DNA of 46,426 bases, from contig DATJSI010000088.1 in NCBI GenBank assembly GCA_035504215.1, positions 1 to 46,426 of the forward strand, written 5' to 3'. Positions 2,757-27,903 of the stretch are shown here, one piece after another. The translations under genes were made by a program, and so were the position numbers. Source of the stretch: Mycobacteriales bacterium. Lineage in GTDB: Bacteria; Actinomycetota; Actinomycetes; JAFAQI01. The notes under the pieces are model-generated. The model saw nothing but the letters and a program-made list of their open reading frames with translations. It searched no databases and had not been told where the DNA came from. The stretch's first letter is position 1; every line of letters starts with the position of its first letter.

Positions 2757-3605
2757 TCATTGCAGGTAGTGCGCGCGCAGCGACATGACGTCGGCGACGT
2801 ACTGCTTGGTAGCGGCGAACATTCCGTGCTCGCGGACCGACTGGAGACCTTGGTAGTACCCCGCCACGGCCTGCGAGGTCGAGCTCGCCTCATGGGTGAG
2901 CAGCGAGAGCATCGCGACGCCGGCGGTGACGTTGTCCTGCGCGTCCCCCAAGTCGAGCCGGCGGTGCAGGACGTCGTCGGACAGGAAGACGCCGGTGGCG
3001 GGCATGACCTGCATGGCGCCGATCGCCCCCACCGGGGAGATCTCCCGCATGTTCCACCCCGACTCCTGCCATGAGATCGCGAGCGCCAGGGCGGGGTCCA
3101 GCCGCCACTTCGCCGCCGTGGCGCGGATCATCTCGGCGATCTGGTCCTGGGAAGGCTCCGGGCGGGTGGCAAGCGACCCGAGCCGCGAGCGGTGCGTAGC
3201 GACCCGCTGCGGGATCGCCAGCCGGGCGCCGAGCACCACGACGGTCGAGGACCCCAGATGGTTGCGGCGCGCGATCGCTGCCGGGCTGACGTGGTAGCGG
3301 GCCGCGAGCCCGTCGAGGGTGTCGCCGGCAACGACGGTGTGGAACACGACGTGCGTCTTCGCGTGAGCCGGCCCCGAGCCCGGCACCTTGAGCTCCTGTC
3401 CGGCGTAGATGAGGTCGCCGTCGCCGGGCAGGTGGTTCAGCGCGACCAGCCGCGCGACCGTGGTGTGGTAGCGCAGCGCGATCGCGGACAGGGTGTCGCC
3501 GGGGTGCACGCGGATCAGCGCGACCGCGGACGCGGAGCCGGTGATGACCGCGGCGAGCGCGATCGGGACAGCGAGCGCGCGGACGGGCCGGCCGAAGAGC
3601 GCCAT
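2757..3605 (-). CDS. Secreted LysM-LysM-lytic transglycosylase
   Basis: A 282-aa protein. Residues 1-28 form a signal peptide or anchor (AVPIALAAVITGSASA). Two LysM domains follow, the first with VHPGDTLSAIALRYHTT and the second with VVAGDTLDGLAARYHVS; both bind glycan. The C-terminal half is a lysozyme-like transglycosylase (SLT) domain: ISWQESGWN supplies the catalytic Glu, and GAIGAMQVMP is the usual second motif. It should cleave peptidoglycan glycan strands outside the membrane. It lies 83 bp upstream of the PASTA kinase gene on the same strand, a natural pairing because PASTA repeats recognise muropeptides. A TACCGT -10 ends 8 nt before the ATG, and four GTCACA-like 9-mers lie just upstream, suggesting activation by an MtrA-type regulator. 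Confidence 0.9.
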   Translation of the reverse strand: MALFGRPVRALAVPIALAAVITGSASAVALIRVHPGDTLSAIALRYHTTVARLVALNHLPGDGDLIYAGQELKVPGSGPAHAKTHVVFHTVVAGDTLDGLAARYHVSPAAIARRNHLGSSTVVVLGARLAIPQRVATHRSRLGSLATRPEPSQDQIAEMIRATAAKWRLDPALALAISWQESGWNMREISPVGAIGAMQVMPATGVFLSDDVLHRRLDLGDAQDNVTAGVAMLSLLTHEASSTSQAVAGYYQGLQSVREHGMFAATKQYVADVMSLRAHYLQ

Positions 3606-3613
3606 GACCGGTC

Positions 3614-3619
3614 ACGGTA
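3614..3619 (-). promoter_or_regulatory. -10 element of the transglycosylase gene
   Basis: The minus strand reads TACCGT, 8 nt before the ATG at 3605. There is no -35 of good quality; that position is occupied by the tandem 9-mers at 3627-3662, which is what an activator-dependent promoter would look like. Confidence 0.55.
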
Positions 3620-3626
3620 GTCGTCC

Positions 3627-3662
3627 TGTGACGGGTGTGACAAGTGTTACGGATGTGACGAA
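3627..3662 (-). promoter_or_regulatory. Four tandem 9-bp repeats, MtrA-like binding array
   Basis: On the plus strand the units are TGTGACGGG, TGTGACAAG, TGTTACGGA and TGTGACGAA, in perfect 9-bp register. On the strand of the transglycosylase gene each contains GTCACA or GTAACA followed by three bases. This resembles the direct repeats bound by the response regulator MtrA in mycobacteria and relatives, whose targets include cell wall hydrolases. The array would cover roughly -21 to -57 of that promoter. It also lies 26 bp upstream of the divergent dehydrogenase gene. The repeats are seen directly; the MtrA link is inference. Confidence 0.65.
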
Positions 3663-3688
3663 GTGGCGTGTCTGGCAGGATCGGCCGT

Positions 3689-4693
3689 ATGGCCGGCTCC
3701 GATCCGTGGACGATGCTCGCGCTCCCGCCGCTGGAGCGTCAGGGGATCGAGGCGCTGTTCGCGGGCCTGCCGCTGGACATCGTTGTGCCCCGCGAGCGCA
3801 CACCGGCCGGCGTACTCGAGGTCTGCGAGTCCGCCGAGGTCGTCTTCGGCGACTGGAACGGCGCCCTGCGAGTGACGGCGGAGGTGGTCGAGCACGCGCC
3901 ACGGCTGGCGTTCGTCCAGCAGCCGAGCTCGGGCGTCGACTGCATCGACGTACCCGCATGTACGGCGGCCGGCATCCCGGTCGCGAACTCCGGCAGCGCG
4001 AATGCCGTGAGCGTCGCTGAGTGGTGTCTCGGTGCCGCGCTCGCCGCGATGCGCTCGTTGGCGTGGGGGGACAGCGAGGTGCGTGCCGGGCGCTGGCCGC
4101 AGTTCGAGATCCCGGCCCGCGGCGGTGGTGAGCTGTTCGGCCGCCGGGTCGGCATCGTCGGCATGGGCCTGATCGGCCGCGAGTGCGCCACCAGGTTCGC
4201 AGCCCTCGGTTGCGACGTCGCGCACTGGAGCCGCACGAAACGGGAGCCCGCCGCGGCCGGCGGCGCCCCGTGGATGGAGCTTGACGAGCTGCTGCGCCGC
4301 TCGGACGTCTTGGTCATCGTGGTCGCGCTGACCGAGCAGACCAGGGGCATGTTCGGTGCGGCACAGCTCGCGCTGCTGCCGCCGGGCGCGTTCGTCGTCA
4401 ACGCGGCGCGTGGCGGTCTGCTGAGTGAGGACGCGCTGCTCGCCGCTGTTCGCAGCGGCGCGCTCGCCGGCGCCGCTCTGGACGTCTACGCGACCGAGCC
4501 GCTCGCCGACGGCTCGCCGCTGCGCGAGGAGGACCGGATCCTGCTCTCACCGCATGCGGCGGCCGCGACCCGTGAGGCGATGGGGCGGCTGATCAGCTCG
4601 GTGGTCGACAACGTGCGGCGTGCGACCGCTGGTGAGGCGCCGCTCGAGGTGGTCAACGGCCTGCCAGGTCCGATCAAGCGCCGGCTCGGCTGA
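3689..4693 (+). CDS. D-isomer-specific 2-hydroxyacid dehydrogenase family protein
   Basis: A 334-aa NAD(P)-dependent oxidoreductase of the D-lactate/phosphoglycerate/glyoxylate reductase family. The nucleotide-binding domain has GIVGMGLIG, and the strand that follows ends HWSRTKR, where the Ser-Arg pair favours NADP. The catalytic triad is present: Arg in NAARGGLL, Glu in YATEPL, and His in LSPHAAAA. No ACT domain is present, so it is not a typical SerA; a hydroxypyruvate or glyoxylate reductase role is possible but unproven. The ATG at 3689 is preceded 6 nt upstream by CAGGAT, a weak leaderless -10. Its last 20 bases overlap the 3-prime end of the convergent Rieske gene. Confidence 0.85.
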   Translation: MAGSDPWTMLALPPLERQGIEALFAGLPLDIVVPRERTPAGVLEVCESAEVVFGDWNGALRVTAEVVEHAPRLAFVQQPSSGVDCIDVPACTAAGIPVANSGSANAVSVAEWCLGAALAAMRSLAWGDSEVRAGRWPQFEIPARGGGELFGRRVGIVGMGLIGRECATRFAALGCDVAHWSRTKREPAAAGGAPWMELDELLRRSDVLVIVVALTEQTRGMFGAAQLALLPPGAFVVNAARGGLLSEDALLAAVRSGALAGAALDVYATEPLADGSPLREEDRILLSPHAAAATREAMGRLISSVVDNVRRATAGEAPLEVVNGLPGPIKRRLG

Positions 4694-5622: not shown

Positions 5623-7768
<2,146 letters not shown>

Positions 7769-7780
7769 CGGTTGGCCTCC

Positions 7781-7864
7781 AGCTCCCTTCGCCGGCATGA
7801 CCCGGATCAGGTTCAACGGTCGGTGGCCGCGCCACCCTCTCAGCCCTCGCGGACTCCCGTGCGC
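7781..7864 (-). promoter_or_regulatory. TPP riboswitch (THI element)
   Basis: The minus strand carries the conserved TPP aptamer parts in order: ACGGGAGTCC, GGGCTGAGAGG, then GACCGTTGAACCTGATCCGG, then GTCATGCCGGCGAAGGGA. The stem pairs between these blocks are visible. The aptamer ends 1 nt before the thiO ribosome site (GGAGG at 7780-7776), and no terminator with a U-run follows. Control is probably at translation initiation, repressing thiO-thiS-thiG when thiamine pyrophosphate is plentiful. Confidence 0.97.
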
Positions 7865-7869
7865 TGTCC

Positions 7870-7895
7870 AGAGTACGCCCGGGGCGAATTACGCT
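7870..7895. promoter_or_regulatory. Back-to-back -10 elements for the thi operon and the Rv2175c-like gene
   Basis: On the minus strand TACTCT (7875-7870) would start a transcript at about 7863, exactly where the riboswitch begins. On the plus strand TACGCT (7890-7895) lies 6 nt before the GTG at 7902. The two promoters would share less than 40 bp, so occupancy of one could affect the other. Confidence 0.5.
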
Positions 7896-27046: not shown

Positions 27047-27225
27047 TGGCGGGACCTCCTCGAGGCGGGCCGACGGCCCGACGGTGGCTGCAAACACGTG
27101 CTGATCAGTTTTACATCTCGTTCGCGAGTCCGTCTTGGCTCAACAGATAACGCCTGGGTGACGGGCCGGCAACAGCGACGACGGTGGATCCGCTCGCCCG
27201 GTTGGGTGAGACCGTGGCGAAATGG

Positions 27226-27285
27226 TTGACAGGGGAGCAAAGTGGAGTACGGTGGCGCGCTATGGGGAGTGATGTGGGGCAGTGG
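27226..27285 (+). promoter_or_regulatory. dcw cluster promoter with MraZ operator repeats
   Basis: TTGACA (27226-27231) and TACGGT (27248-27253), spaced 16 bp, make a strong promoter. GTGG occurs at 27242, 27252, 27274 and 27282, with ATGG at 27262, so the first three are exactly 10 bp apart. MraZ is known to bind short GTGGG-like direct repeats in its own promoter, and these cover the -10 and early transcribed region. Transcription should begin near 27260, giving a 5-prime leader of about 70 nt before mraZ. Confidence 0.8.
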
Positions 27286-27329
27286 CCCGCATCACCGCGG
27301 CGGTTCGGGGCGAAGTGGGGAGGCGAGGC

Positions 27330-27758: not shown

Positions 27759-27791
27759 CCCCGATCGCACGCCGTTGTCAGTCCGATTCGT

Positions 27792-27872
27792 ATGTGCGGC
27801 CCGGCCCCCGCCCGCGGCCCCTGACGCCACTTCCCCGGCGCCAGGTGTGGCGGAGGGGACCCGGCCGCACAT
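27792..27872 (+). ncRNA. mraW-type leader RNA structure
   Basis: The mraZ-rsmH gap can fold into a long hairpin. The outer arms ATGTGCGGCC (27792-27801) and GGCCGCACAT (27863-27872) are perfect complements. Nearer the tip CGCCAC (27825-27830) pairs with GTGGCG (27847-27852), flanked by CCCCT/AGGGG. CTTCCCC at 27830-27836 near the tip matches the conserved loop of the mraW RNA motif, known in actinobacteria just upstream of mraW (rsmH). Its ligand or partner is unknown. It ends about 14 nt before the rsmH ribosome site. Confidence 0.75.
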
Positions 27873-27903
27873 CCAGCACCACGCTCCGGAGGGCCTCACC
27901 GAG

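Follow-up and report, generated by a model that had tools for sequence, protein, structure and literature searches.

Actinobacteria must hold their own wall-cutting enzymes tightly in check during growth and division, and the joint regulation of these enzymes is incompletely known. The window analysed here (the whole stretch of DNA, 46,426 nucleotides) carries a row of GTCACA-type direct repeats in front of a gene for a LysM-SLT lytic transglycosylase, which raises the question of what this element is, which other genes share it and which protein reads it. Two clues conflict: the set of genes that carry the element resembles the MtrA regulon, but its spacing is unlike that of MtrA sites. Our analysis arrives at a well-supported prediction of an operator array and of a wall/division regulon, whose binder would be either MtrA in an undescribed 9-bp mode or another regulator.

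The array and its promoter

The array consists of four GTMACA units at exact 9-bp steps on the minus strand, starting at positions 3659, 3650, 3641 and 3632, so that the GTMACA units span 3659-3627 and the array proper, with its spacers, takes up 3624-3659 (Table 1). In minus-strand order it reads GTCACATCC GTAACACTT GTCACACCC GTCACAGGA, followed by CGAC, TACCGT, GACCGGTC and the ATG at 3605. The sequence-only reading had described four GTCACA/GTAACA units in exact 9-bp register before the LysM/transglycosylase gene, and this description is confirmed; the span that it gave, 3606-3688, does contain the array, but also takes in the -10 hexamer and the divergent start. All spacers within the array differ from one another. 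The pattern GTNACA-N3-GTNACA has three matches in the window, all of them inside this array, against an expectation of 0.03, and none of 100 dinucleotide-preserving shuffles of the window yielded three matches.

Table 1. Features of the array region, in window coordinates
Feature	Position	Strand	Remarks
LysM-LysM-SLT lytic transglycosylase, 282 aa, signal-like N-terminus	2757..3605	-	Pfam LysM (two stretches) and SLT
Putative -10-like hexamer TACCGT, 18 bp from the -35	3614..3619	-	TANNNT at N18 in 14/15 aligned orthologues, at N17 in one
Repeat unit 4, GTCACAGGA	3624..3632	-	between -35 and -10
Repeat unit 3, GTCACACCC	3633..3641	-	overlaps the -35; GTCACA invariant in 15/15 aligned orthologous promoters
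Putative -35-like hexamer TTGTCA	3638..3643	-	kept in 15/15 aligned orthologous promoters
Repeat unit 2, GTAACACTT	3642..3650	-	9-bp register
Repeat unit 1, GTCACATCC	3651..3659	-	9-bp register
Divergent D-2-hydroxyacid dehydrogenase	3668..4693	+	Pfam 2-Hacid_dh; ATG at 3690 is an alternative start
TCTGGCAGGATC, conserved promoter-like motif just upstream of the dehydrogenase start	3671..3682	+	conserved in relatives; distance to the array varies

A consensus promoter scan called no promoter at threshold for the LysM-SLT gene, and TTGTCA scores below that threshold; we infer the -35 and -10 of this promoter from their conservation among orthologues (see below). The next gene along encodes a PASTA kinase. 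On the other side, the dehydrogenase gene is divergent from LysM-SLT in relatives too, and a TCTGGCACGAT-like motif before its start, found both at 3671-3682 of the window and in the relatives, is possibly a leaderless promoter. Across relatives this motif lies anywhere between about 0 and 20 bp from the array, while the register to the LysM-SLT promoter is fixed, and the suggestion that the array also regulates the dehydrogenase is therefore unsupported.

Conservation of the 9-bp register

Orthologues of the LysM-SLT gene were drawn from two named Frankiales-type MAGs and 118 related genomes, and the best four-unit array upstream of each of 25 orthologues was rated with a simple unit score (maximum 24; the promoters of related genomes are not independent). 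The mean best score was 20.0 at period 9, compared with 13.2-13.8 at periods 7, 8, 10, 11 and 12 and with 13.2 for shuffles. A score of at least 18 was reached by 22 of the 25 promoters at period 9 and by none of the 25 at period 7, 8, 10, 11 or 12. The repeats are thus conserved in orthologous promoters, one of the two points on which the sequence-only reading had declared beforehand that it would stand or fall. The array is probably an anciently conserved control element.

The register relative to the core promoter, which played no part in the scoring of arrays, can be stated for the 15 aligned promoters that have a recognisable TTGTCA -35 and a TANNNT (arrays are also present at loci L022 and L029, which are absent from the 15-promoter table). 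The array is locked to TTGTCA-N18-TANNNT in 14 of them, with N17 in the remaining one, and the placement of unit 3 on the -35 and of unit 4 in the spacer is common to all 15. Unit 3 is invariant, whereas units 1, 2 and 4 vary: their C5 and A6 are nearly invariant, G1 is strongly preserved, and C frequently replaces T2 and A4, which amounts to a unit preference G-Y-M-M-C-A, unlike GTnAC. The positions between the units are mostly C or G.

We picture the array as a row of equal binding sites inside a housekeeping-type promoter, with one protein subunit per 9-bp unit, in which unit 3 would cover the -35, unit 4 would fill the spacer, and units 1 and 2 would reach upstream. A step that is always 9 bp points to a row of identical subunits, whose binding would presumably be head-to-tail and cooperative. 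Since units lie over the -35 and the spacer, the bound protein would have to meet region 4 of sigma, which it would either block or assist. Sites of SARP and OmpR-class activators are likewise direct repeats that lie over the -35 and end with a unit 7-8 bp from the -10, and the array shares this placement over the -35 and near the -10; those sites recur every 11 bp, in contrast to the 9-bp step seen here. According to the MtrA literature, repression is exerted from sites near the -10 and activation from sites upstream of the -35, and the LysM-SLT array spans both zones. We consider repression of this potentially lethal hydrolase somewhat likelier than its activation.

Other loci with the same element

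The sequence-only reading had proposed to look for GTNACA-N3-GTNACA at other hydrolase genes of the genome, and they are indeed found there. The whole 3.47-Mb genome contains 8 matches, compared with 0 for the reversed control pattern, and further 9-bp pairs stand 20 bp before ftsK (L007), in the region that separates the divergent LCP and SpoIID genes of L006, and upstream of the NlpC/P60 gene of L001. Another pair lies near an HTH_67 gene (L005), and one inside the start of a short-chain dehydrogenase gene (L008) is probably due to chance. Exact GTCACA pairs of this genome are separated by a gap of 3 in five cases, of 6 in one and of 5 in none; among the matches listed in relatives, and with the repeated element of genome G008 excluded, the gaps are 3 (55 matches), 5 (28) and 6 (13), any other gap occurring at most 7 times. 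The excluded element, GTCACAACACCTATGTCACA, is present in about a dozen copies on many contigs of G008 and is probably a repeated mobile element.

Across the class, 52 of 394 genomes contain three-unit arrays, with 64 matches in all, compared with 4 for the reversed control, some of the three-unit matches being coding or simple tandem repeats. Where spacing was left free and the spacers are unlike, the matches listed have the gaps 3+3 in 24 cases, 6+6 in six and 5+5 in one, and arrays elsewhere comprise two to five units. Genome G201 has, at locus L143, a pair of three-unit GTAACA arrays in inverted orientation that point towards each other across about 40 bp.

The genes that adjoin arrays (Pfam names; gene calls at these loci are heuristic) encode, among others, NLPC_P60 (five loci), Amidase_2 (two), SpoIID, LytR_cpsA_psr, LytR_C, Peptidase_M23, polysaccharide deacetylase, SteA-like_C, FtsK and antigen 85-type esterase domains, as well as a Transglycosylas domain combined with G5 and DUF348 in an rpfB-like gene that follows tatD. 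Among the individual loci L138 is ripA-like, L141 is of the antigen 85 type, and L063 and L064 are rpfB-like. A count made by hand, which includes eight glpR-type loci and has no matched random background, finds a gene of wall or division function no more than 350 bp away at about 26 of about 41 loci with at least three non-identical units.

Two groups of loci add detail. In five genomes of family f1 (L007, L159, L161, L163, L164) ftsK is preceded, about 20 bp before its start, by two reversed 9-bp units at N8 from a TANNNT, which places the upstream unit over the -35; both orientations of the array thus occur at equivalent promoter positions. In genus g11, the array gene next to moeA and rimJ fits by its context the published McdR target Rv0996/MSMEG_5468. 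Seven glpR (Rv0996-type) promoters of family f5 (L098, L101, L102, L104, L106, L107, L140) carry both the exact McdR palindrome AATnACAnnnnTGTnATT and, separately from it, a 9-bp array.

The element is therefore both conserved in orthologous promoters and common to several hydrolase genes, and the view of the repeats as an operator-type array at a peptidoglycan hydrolase promoter is supported by its recurrence at other muralytic genes. We think it probable, arguing from sequence, that the array is a conserved operator of equal sites in the LysM-SLT promoter and that a regulon of peptidoglycan hydrolase and division genes across the class bears this element. A motif kept in fixed register at such genes from mycobacteria-like to Frankiales-like genomes is a well-defined DNA bait for isolating its regulator.

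Candidate binders

The reading that survives best, by a narrow margin over MtrA and itself short of probable, is that the array is bound by a conserved regulator of actinobacteria that has so far no link with this motif; it would tile 9-bp direct repeats and act on wall and division genes beside MtrA. It is suggested by the strict 9-bp period and the departure of the unit preference from GTnAC, by the presence of three or more units and of both orientations at equivalent promoter positions, and by the coexistence of arrays with separate MtrA-like and McdR sites. Against it stands the lack of a candidate protein: no recurrent autoregulated regulator gene was found at the arrays, where regulator genes occur as scattered cases (HTH_67 at L005, a McdR-like MerR at L097, a BldC-like gene at L155). 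The open-access literature contained no description of such a 9-bp element that we could find, and an earlier description is possible in subscription papers, including the original MtrA footprint work. On balance we mildly favour a class-wide hydrolase and division regulon that would be governed either by a regulator new to 9-bp arrays beside MtrA or by MtrA itself in head-to-tail rows.

That MtrA is the binder, applying its GTCACA half-site specificity but placing its subunits at 9-bp intervals in arrays of two to five units, would be an undescribed mode and an exception to the family's 11-bp rule; we regard it as quite possible, if short of probable. The unit matches the core GTCACAgcg of the published M. 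tuberculosis MtrA box, and MtrA boxes are, like the array, direct repeats of GTCACA/GTAACA that occur in the promoters of peptidoglycan hydrolase, rpf and antigen 85 genes. The genome encodes an MtrA that scores 383 bits, above the family cut-off; it can be aligned over its full length with M. tuberculosis MtrA (2gwr), from which its DNA-binding domain differs very little, and mtrB follows mtrA. Every one of the 38 array-bearing genomes tested likewise has an MtrA that passes the family cut-off, a co-occurrence of little power since MtrA is so universal. The LysM-SLT gene, coding for a muralytic enzyme, is a target of the known type, and the published MtrA targets ripA, rpfA-E, fbpB and fbpC overlap with array genes (L138; L141; L063 and L064). 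For MtrA control of muralytic genes, as originally proposed, the encoded MtrA/MtrB pair and the target overlap at ripA, rpfB and antigen 85 speak in favour, and the spacing speaks against.

The difficulty lies in the geometry. All the published MtrA consensus sites examined have an 11-bp period (8+3, 7+4 or 6+5), and the length of the linker has been reported to be important for binding, whereas the 25 orthologous LysM-SLT promoters are periodic at 9 bp only. GTNAC-N6-GTNAC has no match in the window, and the best 11-bp pair at the LysM-SLT promoter reaches only 6/8. The best 11-bp pair likewise scores only 6/8, against 8/8 for the 9-bp pair, at L138, L141, L063, L064, L006, L007, L098 and L139. 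The four GTMACA units do provide half-sites of the GTnAC type, but T2 and A4, which are core bases in MtrA sites, vary in the array, where G1, C5 and A6 are conserved instead. An MtrA box has two half-sites, in contrast to the four units here; the remark that four copies exceed the usual two holds when set against published MtrA boxes, although the half-sites of the latter step by 11 bp and not by 9. In view of the 11-bp period with its critical linker, the identification of the units with MtrA boxes as published is unsupported.

The leader of the genome's own NlpC/P60 gene (L001:1501-1802) combines a 9-bp pair with a TAGTGT -10-like box, with GTTACCACTTCGTTAC, which is an exact 11-bp pair, and with a c-di-AMP riboswitch that directly follows the 11-bp pair. 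The perfect 11-bp pair, GTTACC-N5-GTTAC, lies about 100 bp from the 9-bp array, which suggests two separate elements and argues against MtrA as the reader of the 9-bp units. Only 3 of 10 genomes had the exact GTTACC-N5-GTTAC pair, a number too small for an MtrA regulon to be defined from it here. The combination of a 9-bp pair, an 11-bp pair and a riboswitch in one leader indicates that several inputs may meet on a single hydrolase gene.

A coat of BldC, or of a BldC-like small MerR-type protein, laid head to tail on the array seems improbable to us. Published BldC operators do resemble the array in being 9-bp direct repeats in variable number and in both orientations, with some targets in wall synthesis and division; the genome's own BldC shares 89% identity with the Streptomyces protein and is accompanied by paralogues, and at L155:1173-1421, in the small genome G091, a three-unit array is followed 80 bp downstream by a BldC-like gene. 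BldC nevertheless needs an AT-rich tetrad in each unit (a change of AATT to GGCC abolishes binding), whereas the units here are sharply defined and not AT-rich, and the spacers are C- or G-rich. Moreover, the BldC search left 12 of the 38 array-bearing genomes without a match at E 1e-3; all seven genomes of genus g11 (family f5) are among them, and 11 of the 12 are listed as 100% complete. This search used a single query (its named residues agree with the paper, and matches reach 96% identity), and distant BldC-like proteins are possible.

It is very improbable that another known regulator, CRP, MraZ, McdR or FtsR, reads the array. The CRP half-site TCACA is contained in GTCACA, but CRP needs the inverted pair TGTGA-N6-TCACA and all units of the array are direct. 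MraZ also controls division genes through short direct repeats; its boxes, though, are GTGG-type at 10-bp steps, and repeats of that form are seen upstream of mraZ in the window and are absent at the array. McdR acts at the glpR promoter, itself an array carrier, but its site is a palindrome that is intact in all seven glpR-type promoters and separate from the array, and the published FtsR site is a 25-bp inverted repeat.

A functionless tandem repeat made by chance or slippage has next to no likelihood: some GTCACA-N3 arrays are indeed identical tandem repeats inside coding sequence (L084, L085, L087), but the spacers of the LysM-SLT array all differ, conservation of register and position across families refutes a functionless repeat, and the window and genome counts, the reversed controls and the conservation at period 9 only rule out chance.

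Elsewhere in the window, the region upstream of mraZ (27180-27300) holds GTGG-type repeats in steps of about 10 bp that resemble MraZ boxes; an mraW RNA comes next (27786-27882), and after it FtsI- and Mur-type genes. A TPP riboswitch lies at 7767-7870, upstream of thiO/thiG-type genes.
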